IMG/VR virus record: IMGVR_UViG_3300030406_000302
Coordinates: 1-20,348 of that record
Source: a virus
Strand: one strand, 5' to 3'
DNA: 20,348 bases
The notes beneath the pieces were generated by a model that saw only the letters and a list, made by a program, of their open reading frames with translations, ran no database searches and was not told where the DNA came from. Both the position numbers and the translations under genes were made by a program. Below, piece by piece: positions 616 to 15,499 of this stretch. Within the stretch, counting starts at the first letter, position 1. Each line of letters opens with the position of its first letter.

Positions 616-810
616 ATGAGCTTTCTACACACATTAAAGATTGAAGAAAGAAGAATACTTCGTGAGGTTGTGAAAAGGGTACACCTCAAACATCATCCTG
701 AACAATTCTGTACTGACCGAGAGGCAGATAAAGTTATAGCTGTTATTGGTCCTGAGACTGTAGACAAGTTATTGAGGATCGGAGTTAATACAAACATTGA
801 TAACGTTTAA
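616..810 (+). CDS. Small hypothetical protein directly upstream of the large terminase
   Basis: This 64-residue soluble protein overlaps the start of the large terminase gene by 14 bases. It has an N-terminal charged helix-like segment (EERRILREVVKRVHLKHHP) and a second part, DREADKVIAVIGPETVDKLL. Similar short proteins occur just before terminase genes in related phages, as far as I recall, without known function. Its position is where a small terminase subunit often sits, but it is shorter than usual for that subunit and I see no clear helix-turn-helix, so I do not call it one. The ribosome binding site is weak (GTAGG, 604-608), so coupling to the upstream gene, which ends at 607, is likely. 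Confidence 0.72.
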   Translation: MSFLHTLKIEERRILREVVKRVHLKHHPEQFCTDREADKVIAVIGPETVDKLLRIGVNTNIDNV

Positions 811-2317
811 GTACAAACCTGATGGTGATGTAGCTAAAGCTTTCTTAAAGGATGATACTTTTTTTAGAGGTATAAGAGGTCCAGTAGGAAGTGGCAAATC
901 AGTTGCTTGTAGTATTGAAGTCTTTAGAAGAGCCTTACAACAAGCAAAATCTGCAGATGGTAAACGAAAAAGTCGTTGGGCTATCATAAGAAATACTAAT
1001 CCACAACTAAGAACAACTACAATAAAGACTTGGCTTGATTGGTTTCCAGAAGAAGATTGGGGTAGGTTTCAGTGGTCTGTTCCTTATACACATAGAATAA
1101 CAAAATCAGATTTAGACTTAGAGGTAATTTTTCTAGCACTTGATAGACCCGAAGACGTAAAGAAGCTTTTATCTTTGGAGTTAACAGGCATTTGGATAAA
1201 TGAGGCAAGAGAAATTCCCAAAAGTATTATAGATGCTTGTACTATGAGGGTAGGAAGATATCCATCTATGAGAGATGGAGGTCCAACTTGGACTGGTGTA
1301 ATAGCTGATACTAATGCTCCTGAGGAAGATCATTGGTGGGCTATCATGGCAGGAGATGTTCCAGTGCCTGACCATATACCTATTGAAGAAGCAAGGATGC
1401 TAATAAAGCCTGATAACTGGAAATTCTTTACACAACCTTCAGCAATGCTTGAGGACAAAGATGATGAAGGTTCTGTTTTAAATTATTCTAAAAATCCAAA
1501 AGCTGAGAACTCAAAACATATGATGCAGAACTATTACTCTAACTTGATACAAGGTAAGACCAAATCATGGATAGATGTTTATGTCATGAATAGATTAGGC
1601 AGTATTCAAGATGGTAAACCAGTTTACAATATGTTTTCTTCTGAAATGCATATAGCAAAAGAAGATATACCCGTTGCAGATGGACAGCCAGTTTATATTG
1701 GAGTGGACTTTGGACTTACTCCTGCTTGTGTGTTTGGGCAAAAGGTAAGAGGAAGATGGTTACTTCTGCAGGAAATAGTTGCTTTTGATATGGGTATAGT
1801 AAGGTTTGCAGAGTTACTAAGGCAGGAGATAGCAGTCAGATATAATAACTGTGAGGTAAATATTTTTGGTGATCCTGCAGGAGATTTTAGAGCACAGACA
1901 GATGAAAGCACACCTTTTCAGATTTTAAGAGGTGCAGGCTTACGAGCAAGACCAACACATAGTAATGATGTATCATTAAGGATTGAGTCAGTTACATCTG
2001 TTCTTACAAGAATGATAGAAGGTCAATCAGGTATTTTAATTGATAGACGTTGTAAAGAACTAATCAAAGGTTTTGAGGGTGGGTATCATTACAAAAGAAT
2101 ACAAGTATCAGGAGAGAGATATGATGATAAACCAAACAAAGATAGGTTTTCACATATACATGATGCTTTACAATATTTAATGCTTGGCTCTGGTGAGGGT
2201 AGGCAAGTCATGGGTCACTTCAAACAAGCCAAAACATTTACTGCAAGAACAAGTTTTGATGTATTTACAAGACAACCTAAGCAACAAAAGCGACAAGGTT
2301 TTTGGTCAAGGCTTTGA
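797..2317 (+). CDS. terL: Terminase large subunit (packaging ATPase and nuclease)
   Basis: This 506-residue protein is the DNA-packaging motor that translocates phage DNA into the procapsid and cuts the concatemer. Walker A is GPVGSGKS at residues 28-35. Walker B is LTGIWINEARE at 129-139, with Glu136 as the likely catalytic glutamate. The RNase H-like nuclease follows, with acidic motifs GVDFG (Asp304), GDPAGD (Asp359, Asp363) and HDALQY (Asp456). Order and spacing are normal for a Terminase_6-type protein and all key residues are present. The start is a TTG: it keeps the usual short lead before Walker A, there is a GGAG at 781-784 (12 bases away), and it overlaps the upstream gene by 14 bases. 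The stop codon overlaps the first copy of the GATTTGTGCGTT motif. Unlike T7, this gene lies upstream of the portal. Confidence 0.96.
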   Translation: MITFKYKPDGDVAKAFLKDDTFFRGIRGPVGSGKSVACSIEVFRRALQQAKSADGKRKSRWAIIRNTNPQLRTTTIKTWLDWFPEEDWGRFQWSVPYTHRITKSDLDLEVIFLALDRPEDVKKLLSLELTGIWINEAREIPKSIIDACTMRVGRYPSMRDGGPTWTGVIADTNAPEEDHWWAIMAGDVPVPDHIPIEEARMLIKPDNWKFFTQPSAMLEDKDDEGSVLNYSKNPKAENSKHMMQNYYSNLIQGKTKSWIDVYVMNRLGSIQDGKPVYNMFSSEMHIAKEDIPVADGQPVYIGVDFGLTPACVFGQKVRGRWLLLQEIVAFDMGIVRFAELLRQEIAVRYNNCEVNIFGDPAGDFRAQTDESTPFQILRGAGLRARPTHSNDVSLRIESVTSVLTRMIEGQSGILIDRRCKELIKGFEGGYHYKRIQVSGERYDDKPNKDRFSHIHDALQYLMLGSGEGRQVMGHFKQAKTFTARTSFDVFTRQPKQQKRQGFWSRL

Positions 2318-2341
2318 TTTGTGCGTTGTGCAAGTAATTTT
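2316..2341 (+). promoter_or_regulatory. Candidate late promoter, copy 1 (GATTTGTGCGTT)
   Basis: The 12-base word GATTTGTGCGTT lies at 2316-2327, overlapping the terminase stop codon. The same word occurs at 5527 and 15455. Copies 1 and 2 share 14 bases, and the 14 bases after the word keep six positions identical in all three copies. It leads into a 56-base gap before the gene at 2374. A good sigma-70 -10 box is not seen at the right distance from TTGTGC. A promoter for a phage-type RNA polymerase is the best reading. RNA processing is an alternative. Confidence 0.5.
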
Positions 2342-2373
2342 GCGTATGTAATTGTAGGATAAAGGAGATTGAT

Positions 2374-2592
2374 ATGTGTTTGCCAAGTAGAAGTCCAAGA
2401 ACTCCACCACCTGATCCTATTGTTGAGCAGGAAAGAGAAGCTGCCAAAGCAGAAGAGCAAGTCAAAAAAGCTGAAATGAGACAAGATGCATTAGAAGAAA
2501 CAGTACAAAGAAAACGAAAAGGTACTGGTAGAAGGTCTTTATTAAGTGGTTCTGGTGGAGGTATTGGTTTTTATAATCGATACGATAGTTAA
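2374..2592 (+). CDS. Small PP-rich phage protein between terminase and portal
   Basis: This 72-residue protein starts at an ATG with a strong ribosome binding site, AAAGGAG at 2361-2367. It has a short N-terminus with Cys2, a Pro-rich stretch (RTPPPDP), a charged helical middle (EQEREAAKAEEQVKKAE, probably coiled coil), and a C-terminal RKGTGRRSLLSGSGGGIGFY segment rich in Gly and Ser. The layout of MC, prolines, charged helix and GRRSLL-Gly is one I recall from small proteins between terminase and portal genes in many marine podoviruses and siphoviruses. Function is unknown. Cys2 might suggest a lipoprotein, but there is no signal peptide. It is the first gene after candidate promoter copy 1. 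The portal starts two bases after its stop. Confidence 0.85.
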   Translation: MCLPSRSPRTPPPDPIVEQEREAAKAEEQVKKAEMRQDALEETVQRKRKGTGRRSLLSGSGGGIGFYNRYDS

Positions 2593-2594
2593 AT

Positions 2595-4124
2595 ATGAAT
2601 TTTGCTGATATATATTTGAAAAAATATGAAAAAGCTAAGACAATACGTCTGCAGTTTGAAGATTTGTATGATGAAATCTTTGATTATTGTTTACCAAAAA
2701 GACAAGGTTTTAAAAGTTACACCCCAGGTCAAAGGCGAGATGATCTTATTTTAGATGAAACTGCAGTCGTTGGTATACAAGAATTTGCTTCAAGATTGCA
2801 GTCAGGTCTTGTGCCTAACTTTGCAAGATGGGCTGACTTTGTTGCAGGCAGTGAAGTTCCCGAAGAAGAGTCAGATACAATCAATAATGAACTTGATAAG
2901 GTAACTGAGTATGTTTTTGAGATAATACAAACATCAAACTTTGCACAAGAAATACATGAATGTTTTATAGACCTTGCACTTGGCACTGCAGTTTTATTAG
3001 TAGAAGAAGGTGATGCAGTAAATCCTATAAGGTTTCATTCTATTCCATTACCTCATGTTGTACTTGATACTGGACCTGATGGCAGGATAGATCATGTTTA
3101 TAGAGAAAGAGAAATTAAATCAGAAGATATGGCAATAGCATATCCCAATGGTGTGTTTTCTGAAAACATGACTAAGAACATGGAGATGGGTGATAAGAAG
3201 TGCAAGATAGTTGAAGTATCATGTCGTATATATGATAATCCAAATGAAGAACACTATGCCTTTATGGTGATAGATGTTGAAAATAAACATTTAATTTTAA
3301 GAGAAGATTTCAAAGGTGTTGGATCAAACCCATTTATTGCTTTTAGATGGAGCAAGGCTAGTGGTGAGATATATGGCAGAGGTCCTGCAGTAAATGCTTT
3401 GAGTGCAATAAAGAGTTGCAATCTTACTATGGAATTAGTTTTTGAAAATGCTCAGATGGCTATATCTGGTATTTATCAGATGGATGATGATGGTGTTGTT
3501 AATACAGATACAATCAATCTAGTCCCAGGAACTGTTATTCCAAAAGCCCCAGGGTCACAAGGTTTGCAACCTATAAGAGCCGCAGGTTCATTTGATGTAT
3601 CAAATTTAATTTTAAATGACATGAGAAATAATATTAAGAGAGCATTATATAATGATATGCTTGGTGATCCAAATAGAACACCTGCATCAGCAACAGAAAT
3701 AGCAGAACGTATGGCTGATTTATCAAGACGTATTGGATCAGCATTTGGAAGACTTCAATCTGAAATGGTAACACCATTATTGCAAAGAATTATCTTCTTA
3801 CTTCGTAAACAAGGTAGAATAGAAATACCAACTGTAAATGGAAGAGAAGTTAAAATCAAAAGCGTTTCTCCCCTAGCTCAGGCACAATCAAATCAGGATA
3901 TAGTTTCTTTTGACAGATTTTTGGAACTTATCCAAGGAAGATTTGGTCCAGAGGTAACGAACCTTCTAGTCTCCTCCGAAGAAGCTGCAGTTTATCTGGC
4001 TAAGAAATTTGGTGTGCCTGACAACCTTATTCGTGATGTCGGTGAAAGAAAACAGATAGTAGAGATGGCACAACAAATGCAACAACAAGGATTACAAGAG
4101 AATGTCCAAGCACTTAGGGGTTGA
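2595..4124 (+). CDS. Portal (head-tail connector) protein, T7 gp8-like
   Basis: This 509-residue protein matches the podovirus head-to-tail connecting protein family (T7 gp8). It would form the dodecameric ring at one capsid vertex through which DNA enters and leaves. Recognisable parts are the N-terminal helical region with LYDEIFDYCLPKRQGF, the run ETAVVGIQEFASRLQSGLVP, the middle GEIYGRGPAVNALSAIKSCN, and RTPASATEIAERMADLSRRI, all typical of this family. The last 30 residues are Gln-rich (EMAQQMQQQGLQENVQ). Length is close to the T7 protein (about 536 aa). No Shine-Dalgarno is seen before the ATG, which lies two bases after the preceding stop, so coupling is likely. Its 3' end overlaps the next gene by 23 bases. 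Confidence 0.95.
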   Translation: MNFADIYLKKYEKAKTIRLQFEDLYDEIFDYCLPKRQGFKSYTPGQRRDDLILDETAVVGIQEFASRLQSGLVPNFARWADFVAGSEVPEEESDTINNELDKVTEYVFEIIQTSNFAQEIHECFIDLALGTAVLLVEEGDAVNPIRFHSIPLPHVVLDTGPDGRIDHVYREREIKSEDMAIAYPNGVFSENMTKNMEMGDKKCKIVEVSCRIYDNPNEEHYAFMVIDVENKHLILREDFKGVGSNPFIAFRWSKASGEIYGRGPAVNALSAIKSCNLTMELVFENAQMAISGIYQMDDDGVVNTDTINLVPGTVIPKAPGSQGLQPIRAAGSFDVSNLILNDMRNNIKRALYNDMLGDPNRTPASATEIAERMADLSRRIGSAFGRLQSEMVTPLLQRIIFLLRKQGRIEIPTVNGREVKIKSVSPLAQAQSNQDIVSFDRFLELIQGRFGPEVTNLLVSSEEAAVYLAKKFGVPDNLIRDVGERKQIVEMAQQMQQQGLQENVQALRG

Positions 4125-4386
4125 TGGATTTCCAAGACCACAAGAAGAAGACCAAAAGATATCTTTAGATTTATTAGCTACGTTTAATACACCTAGTGGT
4201 AAATCAACATTACAATATTTAAAATCGGTAACAATAGAAGCTATATCGGGTGGGGCTATTACCAATGATGAACTTCGTCACATGGAAGGTCAGCGCTATC
4301 TAGTAGCAATGATTGTTAAAAGAATTAACCATGCTGAAAGGATAAAAAATGGAAGAACAAGCACAACAATCAGAAACACAGGTTGA
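4102..4386 (+). CDS. Small Bbp19-like phage protein between portal and scaffold
   Basis: This 94-residue protein contains FNTPSGKSTLQYLKSVTIEA (residues 28-47) and NDELRHMEGQRYLVAMIVKR (55-74). The pattern of a TPxGxxxLxYL segment followed by LRHxEGQRYLVxxI is the one I recall for the Bbp19-like phage domain, named after a Bordetella phage protein. These sit between portal and scaffold or capsid genes in podoviruses and have no established function. The gene starts within the portal gene (23-base overlap), with AAGGA at 4087-4091 ten bases before the ATG. Its 3' end overlaps the scaffold gene by 38 bases. The Bbp19 link is from pattern memory and moderately certain; a small structural or assembly role is inferred from position. 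Confidence 0.85.
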   Translation: MSKHLGVDGFPRPQEEDQKISLDLLATFNTPSGKSTLQYLKSVTIEAISGGAITNDELRHMEGQRYLVAMIVKRINHAERIKNGRTSTTIRNTG

Positions 4387-5089
4387 AGCATCTGAACAAA
4401 CATCAGTGCAAGAAACTGTTGCACCACAAGTTGATAGACCTGAGTGGTTGCCTGAAAAGTTTCAAACACCTGAAGAATTAGCTAAATCATATGGTGAACT
4501 ATCAACAAAGATAGGTCAAAAAGAAGAAGATATAAAAGCAACTGTTCTTCAAGAATTAGAAAATGATGCTTTTTCTAATAGACCTGCAAGTGCAGGTGAT
4601 TATGTAATACCAGAAATTCTTGATGAAGCAGATGCCGCAACCAATCCATTACTTAAATGGTGGTCAGAATATTCATGGGACAATGCATTAACACAAGAAG
4701 AATTTAGTGAAGGTATAACTAAGTGGGCTGAATATACTGCAGGTAATCAACCTGATCTTGAGGCAGTTAAAAAAGATTTAGGAGATAATGCTAACTCAAG
4801 AGTTGAAGCAGTCCAACTATGGATGAATAAATTTTTTCCTGATGCTGATATGCAAGAAGCAGTAGCAGAACTAGGCAGTTCTGTAGGTGGTATAAAAGCT
4901 TTGGAAAAAGTAATAGAAGCTACAAAAGGCACATCATTAAATACAAATACACAACCAACTGGTCAAATAACACAAGCAGATATTGAAGCTAAAATGAAAG
5001 ACCCACGTTATTGGCAACAAGGAAAAAGAGATGAAGCTTTTGTCCAAGAGGTAAATAATGATTGGCAACGATTACTCAATACTGGGTAA
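4349..5089 (+). CDS. Capsid assembly scaffolding protein, T7 gp9-like
   Basis: This 246-residue acidic protein would guide capsid assembly and leave the procapsid before or during packaging. The N-terminus (1-28) is disordered-looking and rich in Glu, Gln, Ser and Thr. Next comes RPEWLPEKFQTPEELAKSY (30-48), the hallmark start of T7-type scaffolds in many podoviruses. The body is acidic and helical, and the C-terminal part has a polar NTNTQPTG linker followed by DIEAKMKDPRYWQQGKRDE, typical of the capsid-binding C-terminus. AAAGGA at 4337-4342 supports the start six bases downstream. Position directly after portal agrees with T7, but one gene (gp13-like) then intervenes before the capsid gene. 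Overlaps on both sides (38 and 32 bases) suggest tightly coupled translation. Confidence 0.93.
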   Translation: MEEQAQQSETQVEASEQTSVQETVAPQVDRPEWLPEKFQTPEELAKSYGELSTKIGQKEEDIKATVLQELENDAFSNRPASAGDYVIPEILDEADAATNPLLKWWSEYSWDNALTQEEFSEGITKWAEYTAGNQPDLEAVKKDLGDNANSRVEAVQLWMNKFFPDADMQEAVAELGSSVGGIKALEKVIEATKGTSLNTNTQPTGQITQADIEAKMKDPRYWQQGKRDEAFVQEVNNDWQRLLNTG

Positions 5090-5570
5090 ATATGCAGATG
5101 CAGAGATAGTTAAATCACAACTATCTCATGCAGAATATCTTCAACATCATTTACGAGAAACAGATAGACGGGAGTGTATGATAGCAAACTGCACACCTTG
5201 GAGAGCATTATTATATCCAATAAAATGTAAAACTGCAGAAACATATACCACGTTAATTGATGATGTGCCTGCAATGATGTTTGGTGTTGTTCCTATAGAT
5301 CAATATAATGTTGGCAGAATATGGATGCTTTGTTCTGATAAAGTAGAAGAAAGACAAAAATCTTTTGTAAAATTTAGCTTTAATATAGTCGAATATTTTC
5401 AAAACAAATATTATTTATTAGAAAACATTGTGCCAGTAGAGCATACAAAAACTATAAAATGGCTAGAATATCTTGGTTTTTTTATTCATAGAAAACCTTT
5501 TTTAATCAATGAATATAAAGTCTATCGATTTGTGCGTTGTCAAAGCGAATCTGTAGAGATTATTGTGTAA
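5058..5570 (+). CDS. T7 gp13-like internal virion protein (GNAT-like fold, DUF2833)
   Basis: This 170-residue protein resembles the T7 gp13 / DUF2833 family, whose members look like degenerate GNAT acetyltransferases. Supporting features are PAMMFGVVPID (71-81), a Trp-containing strand GRIWMLCSD (86-94), and NIVPVEHTKTIKWLEYLGF (123-141), which matches the family's NxxxHxxxxxWLxxLG region near the acetyl-CoA site. In T7, gp13 is needed for infectious particles, and whether this protein has enzyme activity is unknown. AAGAGG at 5046-5051 supports the ATG at 5058, inside the scaffold gene (32-base overlap). In T7 the gene follows the tail tubular genes, so its place between scaffold and capsid is different. 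Codons 157-161 contain candidate promoter copy 2. Confidence 0.82.
   Translation: MIGNDYSILGKYADAEIVKSQLSHAEYLQHHLRETDRRECMIANCTPWRALLYPIKCKTAETYTTLIDDVPAMMFGVVPIDQYNVGRIWMLCSDKVEERQKSFVKFSFNIVEYFQNKYYLLENIVPVEHTKTIKWLEYLGFFIHRKPFLINEYKVYRFVRCQSESVEIIV
5527..5552 (+). promoter_or_regulatory. Candidate late promoter, copy 2 (GATTTGTGCGTT)
   Basis: The exact word GATTTGTGCGTT recurs at 5527-5538, inside the end of the gp13-like gene and 135 bases before the capsid ATG. It shares two further bases (GT) with copy 1. Because it lies in coding sequence yet matches the two copies located at gene ends base for base, selection on the DNA or RNA is likely. Position just before the most highly expressed virion gene fits a strong late promoter. 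Confidence 0.5.
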
Positions 5571-5673
5571 TCATAGACAGCCTATCGAAAGCCGATTGCC
5601 CGTAAGGATAACAAGATGAAGCTAGAAGTAGACAACTGTACTGAAACTGTAACTTAACTTAAGGAGACTTATA
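5571..5673 (+). promoter_or_regulatory. Capsid gene leader region (longest intergenic gap)
   Basis: This 103-base stretch is the longest noncoding gap in the window and lies directly before the capsid gene. It has mixed composition, including a less AT-rich part (5578-5610), a short potential stem ATCG/CGAT (5584-5596) and a direct repeat AACTGTA (5634 and 5645 regions). It ends in a strong capsid ribosome binding site, AAGGAG at 5661-5666. It probably forms the 5' leader of the capsid mRNA if transcription starts at copy 2. No tRNA or terminator is seen. Confidence 0.45.
5616..5657 (+). CDS. Possible 13-codon leader peptide before the capsid gene
   Basis: Inside the capsid leader an ATG at 5616 opens a 13-residue frame, MKLEVDNCTETVT, ending at TAA 5655-5657. 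It has a good ribosome binding site, AAGGA at 5604-5608, with seven bases of spacing, and ends 16 bases before the capsid ATG. Its frame is the same as that of the upstream gp13-like gene, after an in-frame TAA and TAG. It could be a translated leader peptide that keeps ribosomes on the mRNA, or chance. There is no protein-level evidence. Confidence 0.3.
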   Translation: MKLEVDNCTETVT

Positions 5674-6486
5674 ATGGCTAATACAATTGATACAGCCTTT
5701 ATTAAGCAGTTCGAGAGTGAAGTTCATCTTGCTTATCAAAGAATGGGTTCAAAACTCATGAATACAGTAAGACAAGTGAACAACGTTCAAGGAAGTGTTG
5801 TACGCTTTCAGAAGATCGGTACTGGAACTGCTTCTACTAAATCAAGAAATGGTATGGTAACACCAATGGAACTAGCACATACCACTGTCGAGGCAACATT
5901 AAATGATTTTTATGCTGCTGAATATATCGACAAGCTTGATGAATTGAAGACAAATATTGACGAGAGACAAGCAATTGCAACAAGTGCTGCGGCTGCTCTT
6001 GGAAGAAAAACAGACGAAATCTTATACACTGCAATGGATGCAGGTGCTAATAGTACACAACTACATGATACAAGTTCTGCAGTAGAAAAAGCAGACTTGC
6101 TCTCTGCATTTGAAACTTTTGGTACTGCAAACATTCCAGAAGATGGTGGTAGATATATTGCTATGCATCCAAAGGGATATGCTGACTTATTTTTAATAAA
6201 TGAGTTTGCATCATCAGACTTTGTTGGTGAGCAAAACCTACCTTTTGCAGGTGGTATGACTATGAAAGAATTCTTAGGATTCAAGATTTTTTCAACTGCT
6301 GCAATAACTGCAGGAAAGAATATGGTTTACCATACAACTGCTATCGGTCTAGGTGTAGGTGCAAATGTAACGACAGAGTTAAATTATGTACCGGAAAAGG
6401 TTTCACATTTAGCAACATCTATGATGTCCATGGGTGCTAGTGTCATTGATGACAATGGTGTCTATGAACTCTTAGATAATAATTAA
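5674..6486 (+). CDS. Major capsid protein
   Basis: This 270-residue protein is the likely main shell protein. The N-terminus (NTIDTAFIKQFESEVHLAYQ), the Gly/Ser/Thr region around residues 38-65 that looks like an extended loop, the helix YIDKLDELKTNIDERQAIAT with the following Ala-rich stretch, and the later MHPKGYADLFLINEF and GFKIFSTAAI segments are the pattern I know from the Phage_capsid_2-like group of podovirus capsids, presumed to have the HK97 fold. It follows scaffold and gp13-like genes and has one of the best ribosome binding sites in the window, AAGGAG at 5661-5666, eight bases away. It is shorter than T7 gp10A (about 345 aa). No frameshift signal for a longer form like T7 gp10B was noticed at its 3' end. 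Confidence 0.9.
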   Translation: MANTIDTAFIKQFESEVHLAYQRMGSKLMNTVRQVNNVQGSVVRFQKIGTGTASTKSRNGMVTPMELAHTTVEATLNDFYAAEYIDKLDELKTNIDERQAIATSAAAALGRKTDEILYTAMDAGANSTQLHDTSSAVEKADLLSAFETFGTANIPEDGGRYIAMHPKGYADLFLINEFASSDFVGEQNLPFAGGMTMKEFLGFKIFSTAAITAGKNMVYHTTAIGLGVGANVTTELNYVPEKVSHLATSMMSMGASVIDDNGVYELLDNN

Positions 6487-6498
6487 TAGGAGGGTCTA

Positions 6499-6765
6499 AT
6501 GGCTTATAGTTCAAGTGGTCTTCACAAAATTGGTGGTGCTAGTGGAGTTTGTCTGTGGATTTATCAAACCACGGATGCAATTGCGGCAGTTAATTCTGCA
6601 GGCTATTTCACTGGTGAAGCAGTAAATATGTTAAATGTTCGTGACTTAATTATTGTACAAGATACGAATACACCAACAACAAACTTTGTAACTGTCTTAT
6701 CAAACAATGGTACTACTGTAGATGTTTCAGATGGTACTGCTGTTGCAGAAACAGACGGAGATTAG
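6499..6765 (+). CDS. Small capsid-neighbour protein, possible head decoration protein
   Basis: This 88-residue protein has no charged clusters and looks all-beta. It has an N-terminus MAYSSSGLHKIGG, then CLWIYQTTDAIAAVNSAGYF, then VRDLIIVQDTN and a Thr/Val-rich tail. Small proteins beginning with this SSSGL-IGG and W-Y-TxD-A pattern are, from memory, frequently found right after capsid genes in marine phages. A decoration or capsid-stabilising role is inferred from location and size only. It has a strong ribosome binding site, AGGAGGG at 6488-6494, and sits 12 bases after the capsid stop. A striking hairpin follows its stop codon. It could instead be a fibre-like head appendage. Confidence 0.82.
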   Translation: MAYSSSGLHKIGGASGVCLWIYQTTDAIAAVNSAGYFTGEAVNMLNVRDLIIVQDTNTPTTNFVTVLSNNGTTVDVSDGTAVAETDGD

Positions 6766-6795
6766 GAGTAGGGGGAGCAATCCCCCTATCTTTAT
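6764..6795 (+). promoter_or_regulatory. Hairpin splitting the Shine-Dalgarno from the tail tubular A start
   Basis: TAGGGGGA (6769-6776), loop GCAA, and TCCCCCTA (6781-6788) form a perfect 8-bp hairpin with a GNRA tetraloop. The only good ribosome binding site for the gene at 6796, AGGAG at 6764-6768, directly abuts the 5' side. Seven bases separate the 3' side from the ATG. Unfolded spacing is 27 bases; with the hairpin folded it is effectively seven. The tract after the stem (TCTTTAT) is a weak U-run, so partial transcription termination after the capsid genes is an alternative or added role. Confidence 0.72.
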
Positions 6796-7383
6796 ATGGC
6801 AAGTACAGTAGCAAATTCAGCATTAGATATAGCATCAAGAGCCTTAGTTCTTATAGGAGCAGAACCAATAACATCTTTTGACTCAAGTTCAACTGAAGCT
6901 TTGGTGGCTACTAATATGTATGAAGATATAATAAGAGCATCTTTATCAATGGCTAGATGGAGATTTGCAACTGAACAAGCAGAATTAAATCAATTAACAG
7001 ATGTTCCTACTGGAAGATTTGATATAGCACATCAATTGCCAAGTGATCTTTTAGTTCTTCATGCAGTAACTGTTAATGATAATAGAATAGAATATTCATT
7101 GTATGGTGATAAGGTTTTTTCAAACTCTTCTTCACAAGATAAATTAATAGCTGACTTTACATTTAGAGCACAAGAGATTGATTTTCCTTCATATTTTACT
7201 GTGGCAGTAGAGTACTCTTTAGCTAGTATATTTGCTACTGCAATAGCAAGAGATGATGGTCTTATGACAATGATGGAAAGAAAAGCCAATACTTTAATGG
7301 CACAAGCAAGAAATCTTGATTCACAACAACAAACAACAAGAAAACTAACTACATCAAGGTTTATTACTGATAGGAGGTCATAG
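6796..7383 (+). CDS. Tail tubular protein A (adaptor), T7 gp11-like
   Basis: This 195-residue protein matches podovirus tail tubular protein A, the ring that attaches below the portal and links it to the nozzle. The N-terminus ALDIASRALVLIGAEPITSF and the following ALVATNMYEDIIRASLSMARWRFA are the recognisable family signature, with a LP-LH-V-Y beta region in the middle and a C-terminal helical part (ARDDGLMTMMERKANTLMAQ). Length is like T7 gp11 (196 aa). No Shine-Dalgarno lies at normal distance: the AGGAG is 27 bases upstream, beyond the hairpin described at 6764-6795. The stop TAG shares its last base with the GTG start of the nozzle gene. Confidence 0.92.
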   Translation: MASTVANSALDIASRALVLIGAEPITSFDSSSTEALVATNMYEDIIRASLSMARWRFATEQAELNQLTDVPTGRFDIAHQLPSDLLVLHAVTVNDNRIEYSLYGDKVFSNSSSQDKLIADFTFRAQEIDFPSYFTVAVEYSLASIFATAIARDDGLMTMMERKANTLMAQARNLDSQQQTTRKLTTSRFITDRRS

Positions 7384-9620
7384 TGGCTAGAGTAAGAGTG
7401 CCACAAAATAGCTTTCAGTTTGGAGAGATAAGTCCTTCTTTAACATCTAGAACAGATAGTCCAGTTTATACAAATGCCGCTGAAAGAGTTAGAAACTTTT
7501 TTATTAAAGGAGAAGGTGGTGTAACTAAGAGACCTGGGACAAAAAGATGGCATAACTTTGATAGTAGTCCATCTTTTAATTCTAATTTAAGACAGACACT
7601 TAGAATTGAACCATTTATATTTTCAGATGATGAAAAATATATTGTTGGCTTTAGTAATACACAAATAGATATATTTCAGATAAGTCCTTCAACTGGCAAT
7701 GTATCAAAGATACAGACTATTACTGGGCAGTCTTGGTTAGTAAATACAACATCAGCGCCATATCTTGAAGAAATTACATTTACTCAACAAGGTGATGTAA
7801 TGTTTATTGCTCATAATACATTTATGATAAGAAAGCTAGTAAGGACTGGATTGACTACATTTACTGTTGAGACATTTGCTTTTCAACAATCAATAGATGA
7901 TTTACATATATTTCAACCTTATTATCCATTTCAAGCATTGGGAGTTACTTTAAGTGCAAGTCATACCTCTGGAAATGGAAGAACCTTAACTGCATCATCA
8001 GCTTATTTTACATCAGATCATGTTGGTGTTTATTTGAAAATTGGTAAAACAGAAGCTTTGATTACTGGCTTTACAAGTTCAACTGTAGTTACTGCTAATA
8101 TTCTAGGTACATTAAGACAACAATTAGATACAGATGCTTTTCAGACATTTGAAGGAAGTAATAAGGTATTAGTAACTCATGCTCTGCATGGTCTTGGTGT
8201 TGGGGCAAGTATTACTATTGATAGAGCAGGAGCAATAGGCGGAATAGCTATTGGTAATCTTAATGGATCAAGAACAATATCTGCAGTTATTGATGAAAAC
8301 ACATATGAGATTACTGCAGGAGCAAGTGCAACTGCTAGTGCATTAGGTGGTGGAAGACCAAGAATTGAGACTGGAGCGGCAACTACTGAGTGGCAAGAAC
8401 AAAGTTACTCTGCACTTCGTGGGTTTCCTGCGGCAGTTACATTTCATCAAAATAGATTATGGTTTGGTGGGACACTGGCTCAGCCTGATGGTATTTGGGG
8501 ATCAAAAACTGGTGAGTTTTTTAATTTTGATGTTGGTGATGCAAGCGATAATGATGCATTAGATTTAACTGCAAATGTTGGCGAAATATTTTCAATCAGG
8601 CATTTAGTGTCAAATAGAGATTTGCAGGTGTTTACAAGTGGCTCAGAGTTATTTGTACAAGCCCCGACTGACAAACCTGTTACACCTGCAAATGCCACAA
8701 TAAGAAGACAAACACCTTTTGGCTCTAGTTTTGTAAAGCCTACAGTATTTGATGGTGCAACTTTATTTATACAGAAAACTGGTAGTGCATTGAGAGAGTT
8801 TTTATTTACAGATGCAGAAGCATCTTATACGTCTGTGGCTGTATCTTCTCTTGCTCCTCATTTGATACTCGATCCAGTTCAACAAACATCAATCAAAGGT
8901 GCATTGAATAGATCAGAGTCATATGCTTTTCTTTTAAATAATGATGGAACTATAGCTGTATTTTATTCTATTCGAGGTGATAAAAAAGCAGGATGGAGTC
9001 TATGGGACACTCAAGGTAAATGGCATAGTATATGTTCAGTACATGAAAGATTATTTGTTGTTGCCTCAAGAGATGATGGATCAGGATCAACAAAATTATT
9101 TTTTGAAGAGTTTCAAGTTGATATGCCTATGGATTTTTGTGACAGTTTTTCTGGAAGTAGCAGTGTATTTTCTAGTTTAGGATCACATTTTTCAAATAAT
9201 GCAGTTGTGAAAGCTACATCAGGCAATAACTTTCTTGGTGAATTTACTATATCAGGAGCACAAATAGATGCTTCAAATACCATTACTGGAGCATCACAAG
9301 CTTTTATTGGTTATGCATTTACCCCTGAGATAAAATCTTTACCCGTTGATGCTCAGGTTGTTGGAGGTCCTTTAACTGGTGAGCCAAGAAAAGTAACAAG
9401 AGTAACACTAGATTTAGTATCTACATTATCTGTTTCTGTAAATTCTACTGATTTAATTATAAGAAATGTAACAGATGACATGAGTACAGAAAGAACTGCA
9501 GTAACTGGTAAAGAAGAGTTTCGTCTATTGGGATATGCAAGAGACCCAAGGGTTACTGTCTCTCAGTCATTCCCATTTGATTTACAAGTAAATGGTATGG
9601 TTATGGAGGTTGCGTTTTGA
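7383..9620 (+). CDS. Tail tubular protein B (nozzle), T7 gp12-like
   Basis: This 745-residue protein is the tail nozzle, which closes the DNA channel below the adaptor. The N-terminus (NSFQFGEISPSLTSRTDSPV, then RVRNFFIKGEGGVTKRPGTK) is the characteristic start of this family, and the body is beta-rich, as expected for the nozzle's propeller. WQEQSYSALRGFPAAVTFHQ with NRLWFGGT, around residues 338-366, is also typical. T7 gp12 is about 794 aa, so the length is normal. The start is GTG, overlapping the preceding TAG by one base, with a strong AGGAGG at 7372-7377. The end overlaps the next gene's TTG start (TTGA). Confidence 0.94.
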   Translation: MARVRVPQNSFQFGEISPSLTSRTDSPVYTNAAERVRNFFIKGEGGVTKRPGTKRWHNFDSSPSFNSNLRQTLRIEPFIFSDDEKYIVGFSNTQIDIFQISPSTGNVSKIQTITGQSWLVNTTSAPYLEEITFTQQGDVMFIAHNTFMIRKLVRTGLTTFTVETFAFQQSIDDLHIFQPYYPFQALGVTLSASHTSGNGRTLTASSAYFTSDHVGVYLKIGKTEALITGFTSSTVVTANILGTLRQQLDTDAFQTFEGSNKVLVTHALHGLGVGASITIDRAGAIGGIAIGNLNGSRTISAVIDENTYEITAGASATASALGGGRPRIETGAATTEWQEQSYSALRGFPAAVTFHQNRLWFGGTLAQPDGIWGSKTGEFFNFDVGDASDNDALDLTANVGEIFSIRHLVSNRDLQVFTSGSELFVQAPTDKPVTPANATIRRQTPFGSSFVKPTVFDGATLFIQKTGSALREFLFTDAEASYTSVAVSSLAPHLILDPVQQTSIKGALNRSESYAFLLNNDGTIAVFYSIRGDKKAGWSLWDTQGKWHSICSVHERLFVVASRDDGSGSTKLFFEEFQVDMPMDFCDSFSGSSSVFSSLGSHFSNNAVVKATSGNNFLGEFTISGAQIDASNTITGASQAFIGYAFTPEIKSLPVDAQVVGGPLTGEPRKVTRVTLDLVSTLSVSVNSTDLIIRNVTDDMSTERTAVTGKEEFRLLGYARDPRVTVSQSFPFDLQVNGMVMEVAF

Positions 9621-10111
9621 GTTTAATGATTGCGTCAGCAGTTATTTCTGCATTTGGAACTATACAAGCAGGTAAAGCTGCAAAGGCTGAGGCTCGTATG
9701 CAAAGGATGCAGATAGAAGAGCAAAAAAAAGATGCCGAGTTGATTGCATTGCAACAAGGTAATGCAAGGCGAAGAAACTTGCAGGATTTTCTAAATATAA
9801 ATCAATCACTTACTGGTGTTACTGGAAGAGATACAAGTGATAGATCATTAAAAGCTTTACAAGAAAGAGCAAGAAAAGAAGCAGATACTACAGAAGATAG
9901 AGCAAGACTGCAGTTTTTAACTGAACAAAGACAAAGAGATTTGGGTATAGCAGTTGCAAATATGAGAGGCAGAAACGCAATGAATGCATCATTGATAAGT
10001 GCAACATCTAGTCTTTTAATGGCAGGACATAAAGCATCTTCAGTAACTCCTAAATCTACTGGGTATCAGTCACCAGTTTATACAAGTGCAGACTTCAGAG
10101 GTTTTAGATAA
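9617..10111 (+). CDS. Ejection (internal virion) protein, T7 gp14-like
   Basis: This 164-residue protein starts with a hydrophobic segment (MSLMIASAVISAFGTIQAGK) followed by a long Arg/Gln/Glu-rich helical region (AKAEARMQRMQIEEQKKDAE, then QQGNARRRNLQDFLN). A second Ala/Arg helix lies near TEQRQRDLGIAVANMRGRNA. This layout is that of the smallest T7-type ejection protein (gp14, 196 aa), which is released into the outer membrane during infection. The start is TTG within the TTGA overlap with the nozzle stop, supported by GGAGG at 9605-9609 with seven bases of spacing. The ATG at 9626 is a possible but poorer alternative. It is the first of three ejection genes joined by overlaps. Confidence 0.85.
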   Translation: MSLMIASAVISAFGTIQAGKAAKAEARMQRMQIEEQKKDAELIALQQGNARRRNLQDFLNINQSLTGVTGRDTSDRSLKALQERARKEADTTEDRARLQFLTEQRQRDLGIAVANMRGRNAMNASLISATSSLLMAGHKASSVTPKSTGYQSPVYTSADFRGFR

Positions 10112-12156
10112 TGGCAGAATTTCTAACACCAAAACGTAATTCATTTATTAACAGAACTGTAGGTGTTGTATCTACAAATACTGGTGCTGCTCAAGTTGGA
10201 AGAGCCATAGAACAAGCAGGTGCTAGAGCAACACAAATGTTTTATGAAGAAGCAGTTAAAGAACAAAAGAAAGTTGGTGTTGAGACTGTAAGAAAGATGC
10301 CTTCTGTTATGACTCGTAACGATCAAGGTGAGTTAGAGTTTGAAACATTACCAGAAAACTTAAGTGATGTAGCAAGAGAAACTGCAACACCATATCTTTT
10401 CAAACGATATGCAAACCAATTAGACAGACAAACAAGTGAACATATTGGTAAATTATCAGTTGAAACAAAAGATTATGATGAATTTAATAGTAAAGTAAAA
10501 AGCTATTTAGAAGCCACAGAAAAACAGTTAAGTGCTGATAATGTAGGAAGAGACCTAATAGGTATGTTTCGTGACTCAGCAAGCAAATTATCGGCACAGT
10601 ATGGCATTAAAAAGTATCAAGCACAGATCAAAGAAGAAGAAGCTAATGCTATAGAAGATTCTCTATATCTTGTTGATCGATTTACAAATGATATGGCTAT
10701 GTTTGTTCGTGAAGGTTTAAATGATAGTGCCTCTATAAATAAACAAGAAGCATTAAATGAACTTGAATTATTGAGAGGAAGAATACCAAAACGTACTTTT
10801 GATGCTTATAAAGCAAGATTAGTTGTTGCAGAAAAAACTGGTATTATTACTAGAACAACAAGAGGTATGTCTTCATTAGAACTTAATCAAGTTGAAAGAG
10901 CTATAAGAGATAAAACATTTGAGGGATTACCAAAAGATTTAAAAGAAAAATTAAATAAAGCAGGCATAGATAATGCTTATTTTAGAGATATGTCTGAAGC
11001 AAATATAAGTGAAGTGCAAACAGATATTGCAGCTAGGGCAAGCAATCAAGCAACTATTGAAACTGCACTAGCAAAAGATACTGCTGATACTGTAAGTAAC
11101 AGTCTTGCTTTAAGTGGTGTTGCATCAAATACAGTAAAATCAAGAGAAAGTTTTAGTAGTGCATTTCCAGAATACGCTAATCCAGTTAGTTGGGCAATCA
11201 ATCCATCACTTATAAACAATAAGAAGGAATTGAATAAGTTAAGAGTATCTAACATTATGCCACAAACATTAGTTGATGGTTTAAAGTTAGTTGAAACATC
11301 AACTACCATGAATCCAAATCATGTTATGTTACTAAATAACTACAGAAAACAATTTCAATATGTTGATGGAAAATCAAAGGCAATGCCTATAAGTAATGAG
11401 TTGCTTGCAAAGTATGAGGTCTTTGATCGTTTTCTGCAGTTTTATGGTGTTGATAATGCAGAGCAAGCCTACAACATGGCATTTGGTGAAGCCCCAGGAG
11501 ACAATCAAGCAAGAGATTTTGAGATACAAAGAAAGTTAGGTGGCAATACAAAAGCCAGTGCTGATGGTTTAATAAATGCAAAGATTATGAAATTAGCACA
11601 AGATAATGATTTTGCATCAGAATCTATACCATTATTAAAAACTTTGGCATTTGGAATATTAGGAAATAGAAATGTTTCTTCTGATATGGCAGATGAAATA
11701 ATAACAAATCTTTATTCTCAAATGTTTGTTCAAAGTAATTTTACATTCTCACACCTTACTGGACCAAAGGTAGACTCAAGATTTGCACCTGAGAAATATT
11801 TAAAAGGTGATAAATTAAATGAGTTTGTTACTGGTGCAGATGCAAAGCTTTCAATGTCAGGTAGTAAATTAAAACTAGGAGAAAATGCTTTTCTTCTTCC
11901 TGATCCTAAGAGTGGTGATAATGGGGCATTGTATTATGCAGTCAATGATGCAGGTGTTCTTATATTAGATAAGAATAATCAACCTATACAATTTAGAACA
12001 AACAATATTTTAAAGAGTGTTTTACAAAGCCGATTGCGATTACAACAAAAAATTGATAGAGCAACCAAAACGCAGATACAAAAAGAAAACCCAGTTCTTG
12101 ATAAAGATAGTAAATTACCACCTAGTTTTGGTGTAGACATAAAGAAACAAATGTAA
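10111..12156 (+). CDS. Ejection (internal virion) protein, T7 gp15-like
   Basis: This 681-residue, mostly helical, charged protein occupies the position of T7 gp15 (747 aa), one of the core proteins ejected to form the periplasmic channel. The N-terminus NRTVGVVSTNTGAAQVGRAI followed by ARATQMFYEEAVKEQKK is common in marine podovirus members of this class. The rest is low in recognisable motifs, as usual for the family. No enzyme domain or membrane segment is evident. TAATG overlaps join it to its neighbours on both sides, and AGAGG at 10097-10101 may serve as its ribosome binding site. Assignment rests mainly on order, size and N-terminal pattern. Confidence 0.85.
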   Translation: MAEFLTPKRNSFINRTVGVVSTNTGAAQVGRAIEQAGARATQMFYEEAVKEQKKVGVETVRKMPSVMTRNDQGELEFETLPENLSDVARETATPYLFKRYANQLDRQTSEHIGKLSVETKDYDEFNSKVKSYLEATEKQLSADNVGRDLIGMFRDSASKLSAQYGIKKYQAQIKEEEANAIEDSLYLVDRFTNDMAMFVREGLNDSASINKQEALNELELLRGRIPKRTFDAYKARLVVAEKTGIITRTTRGMSSLELNQVERAIRDKTFEGLPKDLKEKLNKAGIDNAYFRDMSEANISEVQTDIAARASNQATIETALAKDTADTVSNSLALSGVASNTVKSRESFSSAFPEYANPVSWAINPSLINNKKELNKLRVSNIMPQTLVDGLKLVETSTTMNPNHVMLLNNYRKQFQYVDGKSKAMPISNELLAKYEVFDRFLQFYGVDNAEQAYNMAFGEAPGDNQARDFEIQRKLGGNTKASADGLINAKIMKLAQDNDFASESIPLLKTLAFGILGNRNVSSDMADEIITNLYSQMFVQSNFTFSHLTGPKVDSRFAPEKYLKGDKLNEFVTGADAKLSMSGSKLKLGENAFLLPDPKSGDNGALYYAVNDAGVLILDKNNQPIQFRTNNILKSVLQSRLRLQQKIDRATKTQIQKENPVLDKDSKLPPSFGVDIKKQM

Positions 12157-15100
12157 TGGCAGAACTGAATCCAAGATTTGGTAAACAAACTATTGTAGGT
12201 GTACCACTTACTAATTATTCGCAAACAGCCAAAGCTGATCCTACATTTGGTGAAAACTTCTTAGCACAACTAGGATATACATATGCACCTTTATATGGGG
12301 CAGTAGAAGAAGAGTTACGTTTTGGTAATTTAAAACGTAAAAAGATGGCTTTTGAACTTGAAGAGTTATCAGGATATGAAGATCATATAGACTATCTTGT
12401 TCGTGCCAAAAACAATGAGCATCTTGAATATCTCAAAGCACAGATAGATGAAAACAGAAAACGTAGAGATATTATAGGTAGATCAAACTGGTATGCTCCA
12501 TCATCTTTGATTGCAGGTATTGTTGATCCTTTAAATATTACATTTGCATTACCAGTATTTGGACAACTTGGAATGTTAGTAAGAGGTGGTATGACTCTTG
12601 GTCAGGCGGCAAAAGCAGGTTTAAAAGGTGGTGCTGTATATGCAGGGGCAAGCGAAGGTATTCGTGCACCATTTGATGAACTCAATACTTTTGGTGAATC
12701 ATCTGTCAATGCCATATCAGCTATAGGTTTGGGTACTGCTATTGGTGTTGCACCAAATGCATTTAGAGCTTTGATGCCAAAATTTAACAAGACAAGTGAA
12801 AACCTTCAAGCTATGGCTCAAGGAGAAAAAAGAGTTGATGTAGAAAACTTAGGTAAAGAAATCAAAGATGGTGAAGTATCAGAAGATTTAGTTAAGACAT
12901 TCTATACTAAATACCTTATGCATCTTGTTCCAAGTGCAGGAAAACGTATTGCCAAAAATGGCACCCAACTTATGAAAAACTACTATGAACGTATAAATGG
13001 TCATGCAGTTTTAGCAAAAGAAAAAGACTTGATGGGTGTTGGTAGTAATCAAAGTATATTACAAAGAGAAGCTTACTATAATGTAGATGCTAACAAGTTT
13101 GTTAATGATTTCCAAGAGTTTTATACAAGAGCAATTACTGGTGATCCAAATAGAAAAGCACCTTCACAATTTATGGATTTTAATATTGACTCTGCAAAAG
13201 CTAGAATAGGTCAAACATTTGGTGGTGAGACACCTACATTTCAGCAGTTTTTTGATGATGCATTTAAGAAATATATTTTATCTAAAGACCCAAAAAATCA
13301 AAGGCTACTTGGTGAATTAACTGATGATGAAAAAATTATGCATACAAAGTTCAAAGAGTATTTTGACAAATATAAAGAAGATGCTCAATATGTTGGATTA
13401 TTAAAAGATGATGCATCATTACAAAGAGAAATAAAAATATTAAAAAAGACTTTAGATGATCTTGATTCAAGAACAAAGTATTTACAAGGATTAGATGATG
13501 CAAAAGGTCTTACTCAAAAACAAAGAGCAGAACTTATTGGGCAAGATGCAAAGGTATTTGAGTACACAAAAAAGTTAAGATGGGCTGAAGATACATTAGA
13601 AATGGGTATATATAACAAGTTTATTGCACCTATTTATTATAATAAAAAATTATTAAAAGAAAGCGCTGAAGCTAGAGAAGGTCTTACTAAAATATTTGAA
13701 AGACATCTTACTCGCAATCCTGCTCGTGTGTGGGATGATGAAGCACAACAATATACTCAAAGATTAGTACAGAATCCAAGACAGTTTGCTAAAGAAACAG
13801 TTGCATCAATATTAGAGGAAAATGCAGATAGTATAGAAAACTTTACAAACAAACCTGGGAGTGGAAAACATCTTAAACACAGAGTTTTGAATATACCTGA
13901 GTATGAAATAATAGATTATATAATTACAGGACCAGAGGTAATGTATAGTTATGCAAACCGAATGGGTAAACGTATTGAGTGGGCAAGAAACTTTGGTGAT
14001 AAAAATATAGATGATGTCTTAAATGAAATCGAAGTTGATATGAGAAACAAAAACTTTGATGAAAAAAAGATAGCTTCATTAAAAAGGGATTTTTCAGAAG
14101 AAATAAGAAGAGCAACGGGTAATATAATAGAAGACCCTGATACCCTTAATAATCAAACTGCACAGATACTAAGAACTATATCAGGCACTACATTTTTACA
14201 TGGTGCAGGATTAGCAGCAGTTGGTGACTTAGGTGTTACTGTTATTGAAAGAGGATTTAAAAAGATAGGTGTTCCTTTTTTTAATGCTGCAGATCGTAAA
14301 GCTTTTTTCAAAAATGCAAAAAACTCTAACTATATGATTGATAATATTGATCTTGCAAAAGCATTGATACAAAAACGTATGATTGAAGATAGTGTAAAAC
14401 GTATTCAACCATCAGGAACAGAAAGAGTTCTTAACCTAGTAAATCAAACATTTTATAACGTACCAATAGTAGGTAACAATTTAGGTGTGTTAACTAAATA
14501 TATGAAGATGATGGATGGTGGTTTTAGGCAATCAGAACTTATTGATATGGCAGTAAAAATTAAGAACAATACTGCTACTAATTTTGATGTACAATTTATG
14601 AGTCGATATGGATATAGCATTGATGATGCAAAGATATTAGCTGATATGCCTTGGGAAAAAGGCGATCATATGTATTATGCTAATACAACTCAGTGGTCAC
14701 AAAAAACTGCACAAGATAGAGAAGTTTACAGACGATTTCAAACTGCATTAGATACTGGTGTTAGTAATGTTATTCTTCATGCTACCTCTTTTGATAAACC
14801 AATGCTTGTTAATGGTGTGTTTTATATGAGACATAGACCATGGATGAAGAGTGTAAAAAATCCTTTTACTGGCGCTGAGTTTTTTCCAATAGATAAAAGA
14901 GCATCTACTAAAAATATAGGAATGGTAAGATTTGAAAATCAGTTATTAGGTTTACCATTTCAGTTTATGAACTTTGGTATGGGTGCATTTACTAGAATTA
15001 CTGGTGGTATGTTTGATGTTGCAAGAAGACATAGACTTGCAGGTGCAATGGCTATGATGTTTTTAGGATATTCTGTATTAAATATACGAAATAGAAATAG

Positions 15101-15455
15101 ATCATACTTTTTTGAAAAAGAACCTACAGATTTATTAGCTAGAACAATCGATCAATCAGGACTTTTAGGTGTATATTCAGATATTTTTTATATGTCATTA
15201 CATGGAATGATGGGATCAGGCATTATGAATGACTCAGAATACCTAAGAGGTAAGTATAAACCAGATGCAATAGATGCTTTGGTTGAGCCATTTGGTGCAT
15301 CAGTAGGACAAATGGTTGATTTTGGAAGAGTTGTTTATGATTACATGAATGGCAATGATAATGAAGCCTCAAGAAGACTTGCTAGAAATATACCATGGAT
15401 TCAACTTTATGGTATGAATGATGATTTCAAAGATTTACTAAGATCACGCAATTAG
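12156..15455 (+). CDS. Large ejection (internal virion) protein, T7 gp16-like, no transglycosylase domain seen
   Basis: This 1099-residue protein occupies the T7 gp16 position, where it would form the core stack and, after ejection, the channel across the envelope. It has Gly/Ala-rich hydrophobic stretches at about 117-165 and 183-206, a central charged helical region, then TFLHGAGLAAVGDLGVTVIE, and near residues 960-980 a hydrophobic AGAMAMMFLGYSVL. These resemble the membrane-active parts of other gp16-type proteins. T7 gp16 (1318 aa) starts with a lytic transglycosylase domain, and I see no such domain here, consistent with the shorter length. The start overlaps the upstream TAA (TAATG). 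The stop TAG overlaps candidate promoter copy 3. Confidence 0.88.
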   Translation: MAELNPRFGKQTIVGVPLTNYSQTAKADPTFGENFLAQLGYTYAPLYGAVEEELRFGNLKRKKMAFELEELSGYEDHIDYLVRAKNNEHLEYLKAQIDENRKRRDIIGRSNWYAPSSLIAGIVDPLNITFALPVFGQLGMLVRGGMTLGQAAKAGLKGGAVYAGASEGIRAPFDELNTFGESSVNAISAIGLGTAIGVAPNAFRALMPKFNKTSENLQAMAQGEKRVDVENLGKEIKDGEVSEDLVKTFYTKYLMHLVPSAGKRIAKNGTQLMKNYYERINGHAVLAKEKDLMGVGSNQSILQREAYYNVDANKFVNDFQEFYTRAITGDPNRKAPSQFMDFNIDSAKARIGQTFGGETPTFQQFFDDAFKKYILSKDPKNQRLLGELTDDEKIMHTKFKEYFDKYKEDAQYVGLLKDDASLQREIKILKKTLDDLDSRTKYLQGLDDAKGLTQKQRAELIGQDAKVFEYTKKLRWAEDTLEMGIYNKFIAPIYYNKKLLKESAEAREGLTKIFERHLTRNPARVWDDEAQQYTQRLVQNPRQFAKETVASILEENADSIENFTNKPGSGKHLKHRVLNIPEYEIIDYIITGPEVMYSYANRMGKRIEWARNFGDKNIDDVLNEIEVDMRNKNFDEKKIASLKRDFSEEIRRATGNIIEDPDTLNNQTAQILRTISGTTFLHGAGLAAVGDLGVTVIERGFKKIGVPFFNAADRKAFFKNAKNSNYMIDNIDLAKALIQKRMIEDSVKRIQPSGTERVLNLVNQTFYNVPIVGNNLGVLTKYMKMMDGGFRQSELIDMAVKIKNNTATNFDVQFMSRYGYSIDDAKILADMPWEKGDHMYYANTTQWSQKTAQDREVYRRFQTALDTGVSNVILHATSFDKPMLVNGVFYMRHRPWMKSVKNPFTGAEFFPIDKRASTKNIGMVRFENQLLGLPFQFMNFGMGAFTRITGGMFDVARRHRLAGAMAMMFLGYSVLNIRNRNRSYFFEKEPTDLLARTIDQSGLLGVYSDIFYMSLHGMMGSGIMNDSEYLRGKYKPDAIDALVEPFGASVGQMVDFGRVVYDYMNGNDNEASRRLARNIPWIQLYGMNDDFKDLLRSRN

Positions 15456-15480
15456 ATTTGTGCGTTTTAGAAAAGATTCT
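15455..15480 (+). promoter_or_regulatory. Candidate late promoter, copy 3 (GATTTGTGCGTT)
   Basis: The exact word GATTTGTGCGTT lies at 15455-15466, overlapping the stop codon of the last ejection gene and 33 bases before the fibre ATG. As at copy 1, the G of the word is part of the upstream stop codon. Downstream positions follow the same partial consensus as copies 1 and 2. It begins the only gap (44 bases) between the ejection genes and the fibre genes, as expected for a promoter of the fibre unit. Confidence 0.5.
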
Positions 15481-15499
15481 TCCACTGTAAAGTCCTATT

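Follow-up and report, generated by a model that had tools for sequence, protein, structure and literature searches.

How late gene expression is timed in T7-like marine phages that do not encode an RNA polymerase is the question addressed here. The DNA analysed, referred to below as the window, is the whole of an IMG/VR record of 20,348 bases and represents a fragment of a T7-like phage, with genes for TerL, portal, scaffold, capsid, tail, internal virion and fibre proteins. The 12-mer GATTTGTGCGTT is found in the window at positions 2316, 5527 and 15455, in each case on the + strand. The analysis suggests that this word is probably the conserved core of the late promoters in an abundant group of uncultured marine phages without their own RNA polymerase. 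Its reader appears to be the host polymerase together with a small phage DNA-binding protein, and not a T7-type polymerase.

Copies of the word and their conservation in relatives

No other exact copy of GATTTGTGCGTT is present in the window, and 100 dinucleotide shuffles gave a mean of 0.00 copies and a maximum of 0. Two 12-mers occur three times in the window, the second of which lies inside the repetitive fibre gene. A sequence-only reading of this DNA had pointed to three copies on the + strand alone, two over stop codons and one in a coding gene, and both their number and their placement were borne out. The search with up to two mismatches that it had suggested returned one further match in the window, on the - strand.

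The conserved unit among relatives is the decamer TTGTGCGTTG, whereas the leading GA of the 12-mer varies. All sites and genes of the window described here are on the + strand. The first copy of the 12-mer overlaps the stop codon (TGA, 2315-2317) of the terminase large subunit gene (TerL, 797..2317, PHROG 2). The decamer at this T site (2319..2328) lies just past the stop, upstream of a small protein gene (2374-2592), which is the first gene downstream, the portal gene (2595-4124), with which the block 2374..4124 ends, and the scaffold gene (4349-5089). The second copy is located within the ORF 5058..5570, labelled 'vp5' and belonging to the internal-virion-protein family phrog_308, where it is read in frame as R-F-V-R-C. 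Its decamer (C site, 5530..5539) is found in the end of this ORF, 144 nt before the ATG of the major capsid protein gene (5674..6486). The third copy overlaps the stop codon (TAG, 15453-15455) of the internal virion protein gene (12156..15455). The corresponding F site (15458..15467), located directly past this stop and before the fibre gene (15500..16651), reads TTGTGCGTTT, one base off TTGTGCGTTG.

Relatives were retrieved by TerL (80) and by the capsid protein (80). Among cultured phages, Pelagibacter phage EXVC031P Hodr is the closest, with a TerL identity of 68%, followed by Methylophilales phage MEP301 with 43%. The word is missing from Hodr, and the analysis found it in no phage in culture. 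In the Hodr record (OQ414635.1) the locus tags read EXVC032PBaldr and all proteins are called hypothetical. The decamer was found on the late strand at the fixed boundaries T, C and F in dozens of contigs, which agrees with the earlier proposal that the sites act in cis at the head of each late gene block and with the outcome anticipated for related phages. T sites lie 1-8 nt past the TerL stop (35 loci), C sites 138-156 nt before the capsid ATG, within the last part of the preceding gene (24 loci in the first of the two sets of relatives), and F sites directly past the stop of the internal virion protein gene, between it and the fibre gene. Some relatives contain U sites located still farther upstream, where they precede terS and another gene. 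A literature search for the word yielded only unrelated primers and sequences, and a search for Hodr yielded nothing relevant.

Among 14 long contigs, TTGTGCGTTG was found 38 times on the late (forward) strand and never on the reverse strand, whereas one-mismatch copies were equally frequent on both strands (17 vs 17), near background. In nine word-bearing genomes the decamer ranks first of all 10-mers, with 25 forward and 0 reverse copies against 0.45 expected. When word-free phages were searched for a counterpart of the word, mostly coding repeats came up.

At the T and F junctions, the word is located in spacer DNA that is present only in word-bearing phages; in word-free phages the next gene usually follows immediately or within about 40 nt. 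On the TerL tree the state of the T site changed 8 times, at least five of these on supported branches, and the C-site decamer tracks the T-site state (17/17 with, 1/31 without). The contigs G058-G061 share a variant, TTGTGAGTTG, at both T and F, and in G060 and G061 also at terS. The coding C site in these four contigs remains TTGTGCGTTG, where the same change would replace Arg by Ser. The concerted change at several non-coding sites is as expected for sites that are read by one factor.

A second local variant, TTGTGCATTG, was observed at the terS-side and c15 sites of G001 (oriented, 6192 and 6705) and G003 (269); the T, C and F sites keep TTGTGCGTTG in such cases.

Two-part geometry of the sites

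Numbering from the first T of the decamer as 0, TG is found at +27/28 in 42 and TA at +30/31 in 35 of the 67 non-redundant sites, with a background of 0.15 for each. If a -35 element is taken to begin with the final TTG of the decamer, this TGnTA follows about 17 bp further on. A -35 TTG, a spacing of about 17 bp and a TG before the -10 are the marks of an extended -10 promoter of sigma70, and by this spacing the TTGTGCG box that makes up the rest of the decamer is placed at -42 to -36. In the window, the T site is followed by TG-TAATTG (2347..2354) and the F site by TG-TAAAGT (15486..15493), both of which resemble an extended -10, with TG at +28 and TA at +30. The C site has a candidate -10, TATTGT (5561..5566), at +31 and is without TG at +27/28. 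Starts would then be expected at about 2361 for T, with AAGGAG just past the predicted start and the ATG at 2374, at about 5572 for C, and for F at the fibre ATG itself (15500, +42), as a putatively leaderless mRNA.

The terS promoter lends independent support to this geometry. In word-free relatives it reads TTGACA-N17-TATACT (Hodr) or similar, and in word-bearing relatives TTGTGCG is fused to TTGACA. These observations suggest that the decamer and TGnTA are the upstream and downstream parts of a bipartite promoter. The sequence-only reading had instead described a single block of about 26 bases, in which the 14 bases downstream of the word also matched; among relatives only the TG and TA are conserved in that region, and the element consists of a decamer and a separate TGnTA.

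The remainder of the promoter is weak. The -10 sequences at T and F resemble TATAAT no better than shuffled sequence does, those at U1, U2 and C do so slightly better, and at T, C and F the -35 is poor past its TTG. Since the -10 is weak apart from TG and TA, the argument for sigma70 is carried by the placement of these dinucleotides and by the terS promoter. No dyad or second half-site was found in or around the decamer. The T, C and F sites are very probably promoters.

Many relatives, word-bearing and word-free alike, contain twin runs of at least seven G (GGGGGGG-aacacaa-GGGGGGG) in the interval from the terS promoter to terS, for example in L059 (6588-6670), L085 (881-965), L056 (189-250) and G026 (about 22,400-22,440 in the oriented contig). 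These may represent a packaging (pac/cos) site.

Across the site catalogue, the ATG follows the decamer at distances between 42 and 156. No distance below +42 occurs, and several unrelated genes begin at exactly +42/43. The fibre ATG is at +42 in all ten near-complete genomes and also in the window (15458 to 15500). This limit is consistent with transcription starting at about +42. At some of the sites with an ATG at +42, the Shine-Dalgarno sequence overlaps the -10, and a transcript starting at +42 would lack it; the sequence may serve read-through mRNA. A Shine-Dalgarno sequence at +26 to +36 was considered as a bar to the use of sigma70, and this objection was dropped given the terS promoter, the placement of TG and TA, and the TA that F sites keep at +30.

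A location at gene junctions and small inverted repeats downstream of some T sites would also fit an RNA element, such as a processing site, a leader structure or a translation signal. Folding z-scores were near 0 for all classes of sites, however, the window gave no Rfam match, and the distance to the ATG is as variable as described above, which makes such an element very improbable. As an observation in its own right, the leader of the capsid mRNA, a ACGGCCTGTAATGCACTGAGCGACCC-like sequence at 5565-5625 of the window (roughly +47 to +110 when counted from the decamer at C), is conserved in nearly all relatives and is possibly a structured 5' leader.

The location of the C site within a gene raises the question of coding constraint. 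Many relatives without the word keep R-F-V-R-C or a near variant. The codons in word-bearing contigs are TTT GTG CGT TGY, whereas in those relatives the third codon of the site varies (GTA, GTT, GAG, TTT or ATA). Coding constraint as the cause of the whole C-site word was rejected, because the choice of codons is kept beyond what the protein demands; the sequence-only reading had likewise judged it insufficient. That the copies are recombination or packaging sites, or a product of chance and coding constraint, for which the copy inside a coding gene could speak, is practically negligible in view of this codon choice, the fixed places at gene starts and the spacer DNA found only with the word.

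The C-site look-alikes of word-free phages keep TG (12/16) and TA (11/16) at the same spacing. Since TG and TA are kept without the word, the capsid promoter is probably ancestral, with group specificity limited to the TTGTGCG box. The idea that the -10 is weaker at word-bearing than at word-free C sites failed (p = 0.53). In the word-free contigs L134, L135, L146, L190 and L201, the position of the capsid promoter shows CGTTG and, after it, a TATAAT or TATAAA close to the consensus, a pattern that suggests an ordinary host promoter there.

Candidate readers of the word

The repetition of the word before the capsid and fibre blocks parallels the T7 promoters phi10 and phi17. The sequence-only reading had compared the placement before the capsid gene with the strong late promoter of T7, and had proposed that the sites are read by a single-subunit phage RNA polymerase of the T7 type. 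The search for such a polymerase gene, which it had recommended, gave no PF00940 match in 17 IMG/VR contigs of the group, in Hodr and MEP301, or in nine further long word-bearing contigs (30.8-33.8 kb), whereas the T7 control was detected with E = 1e-109. The 26 IMG/VR contigs, nine to thirteen of which exceed 30 kb, are fragment records, so that the absence is strong, not complete. No unassigned ORF of the size of a polymerase was found in G020 or G029. Nor is there one contiguous conserved block of about 17-23 bp around the start, as in T7-type promoters; two separated elements are seen, 17 bp apart, and the box is fused to TTGACA at terS. Promoters for a T7-type polymerase are thus scarcely credible, and of the earlier interpretation the set of late promoters stands and the single-subunit polymerase does not.

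An alternative or phage sigma, or a sigma-like protein, might itself recognise TTGTGCGTTG and TGnTA without a separate activator. The near invariance of the decamer and the departure of the -10 from TATAAT would agree with this. No Sigma70_r2 or Sigma70_r4 match was obtained in 14 contigs in which the controls were positive, a search that a very divergent sigma would escape, and the terS promoter keeps TTGACA with or without the box. We consider a dedicated sigma unlikely. Among known activators, MotA (PF09114) was found in 0/14 contigs (T4 control, E = 3e-63), and the match to Phage_CII (PF05269) reached 13.4 bits, under the cut-off of 21.3.

The leftward operon encodes ERF, YqaJ, RusA-like and DUF932 proteins and a small HTH_3 protein, c28, an XRE-type protein of 85-107 aa with a single HTH. 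Among the leftward proteins scanned, a DNA-binding domain was found in c28 only. Its match to PF01381 (HTH_3) scored 31.6 bits in G020, against a cut-off of 23, and 19 bits in G029, below the cut-off. The AF2 model is a compact helical HTH domain (pLDDT 81.5), and the Foldseek neighbours were HipB, P22 C2 and restriction controller proteins, with a probability of 1.00 and E above 0.001. P22 C2-like proteins usually bind dyads, and the decamer is without one. The c28 region is outside the window, which contains no early region; the near relatives G001 and G037 have c28, and the HTH protein of Hodr (15437-15634) is a relative of c28 with a different helix.

The recognition helix of c28 co-occurs with the word. 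The helix SL[IV][HG]KWE was present in 18/18 contigs with both c28 and the word, eight of which came from the TerL or capsid searches and ten of which were chosen by helix, and other helix types were present in 8/8 contigs with c28 and without the word. Helix type and word state thus agree in 26/26 contigs, an association whose independence is lowered by shared ancestry. In the reverse test, contigs chosen by helix alone carried the word in 20/20 cases, and all ten near-complete genomes chosen in this way had T, C and F when the TTGTGAGTTG variant is counted. The co-occurrence is consistent with binding of the box by c28.

An activator other than c28, from the phage or the host, could act at the same promoters. 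Word-bearing and word-free phages also differ in several further genes, and most of the small genes of the leftward operon are unassigned. In a leave-one-out test of genes against the word, c28 scored 8/15, an outcome explained by the heterogeneity of the word-free class and without bearing on the choice of reader; the identities of several large proteins in this test also seemed too low to be reliable. The agreement of the helix with the word, and the DNA-binding domain found only in c28, make another activator a lesser possibility, if one of real weight.

Binding of c28 to TTGTGCG as an operator, with repression of the same late promoters early in infection, would be in line with a box that abuts the -35 and with the resemblance of c28 to the repressors P22 C2 and HipB. 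Position alone does not distinguish activation from repression. The box and the promoter at T and F, however, are either present jointly or both missing, and the poor -35 beyond TTG at all three sites fits promoters in need of an activator better than repressed ones, although this is not decisive. Repression is possible, less likely than activation, and on its own quite unlikely.

Proposed mechanism and comparison with known systems

Activation by c28 remains the preferred reading, and the scheme that we infer is as follows. Late genes of a T7-like marine phage that lacks its own RNA polymerase would form one regulon, with the T, C and F sites as its promoters. The leftward operon would make c28, which would bind TTGTGCG at -42 to -36, directly before the TTG of a mostly degenerate -35. 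Helped by c28, the host polymerase would use the weak extended -10 (TGnTA) about 17 bp downstream. Transcription of the portal/scaffold block, the capsid block and the fibre block would begin at about +42, as would that of terS and one further gene in relatives, and some of the mRNAs would be leaderless. The full mechanism, with host sigma70 polymerase and c28 as activator, is in our judgement reasonably likely. More tentative is the broader proposal that, in a T7-like genome plan, an 85-aa single-HTH activator replaces the phage polymerase, with a non-palindromic 7-bp box joined to the -35 of host promoters, leaderless mRNAs for the fibre and some other late genes, and co-variation of box and helix across the phage group.

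If so, a T7-like layout of repeated late promoters has been reached without a T7 polymerase, and a late regulon would be readable from its sequence, including sites, geometry, predicted starts and one candidate regulator. The type of helix and the DNA word would form a compact pairing, usable for promoter prediction in viromes.

The most similar working mode is that of the T4 middle promoters, which combine a MotA box with a sigma70 extended -10, often TGn, and at which MotA redirects the host polymerase (PMC2988021). MotA is active as a monomer, and its box contains no dyad (PMC2988021). The likeness consists of a phage-specific box without dyad in the -35 region, a host -10 and, with c28 as the candidate, a small phage activator. 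In T4, however, the box takes the place of the -35, with its centre at -30, whereas here it is located at -42 to -36, before the -35 TTG; the T4 promoters have a good -10 and those described here a weak one, and the MotA family was not found in the 14 contigs.

Small HTH activators also serve other systems. Lambda CII reads TTGC-N6-TTGC around the -35, and shares with the sites described here the TTG words in the -35 region; the arrangement here is TTG-N4-TTG ending at the -35, and the match to the CII family is below the cut-off. Controller (C) proteins of restriction-modification systems bind dyad operators as dimers and activate transcription from a position that adjoins the -35. C.AhdI and C.Esp1396I are, like c28, small single-HTH XRE proteins with a similar fold, but the decamer is without dyad and the Foldseek matches are above E = 0.001.

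The HTVC010P-type pelagiphages, likewise T7-like podoviruses of the sea for which the lack of an RNA polymerase is reported, are only distantly related to the word-bearing group. In the part of the published account drawn on here, Polarivirus skadi, a phage of this type, has no RNA polymerase, encodes two transcriptional regulators and depends on the host polymerase; four sigma70 promoters and two Pribnow boxes near the replication genes are listed, and the two regulators are inferred to hijack the host polymerase (PMC10504331). No repeated late-promoter word is described for skadi in that part of the account (PMC10504331) or in the further pelagiphage literature as far as it was covered.

The T7 late promoters phi10 and phi17 (NC_001604) likewise recur ahead of the capsid and fibre genes, and the gene order is the same, but they are read by the T7 polymerase, for which no gene was found in the group contigs. 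A terminator-like hairpin, GTAGGGGGAGCAATCCCCCTAT, is located at 6768-6789 of the window, after the capsid gene and a small gene and before tail tubular A, where it occupies the place of T7 Tphi.
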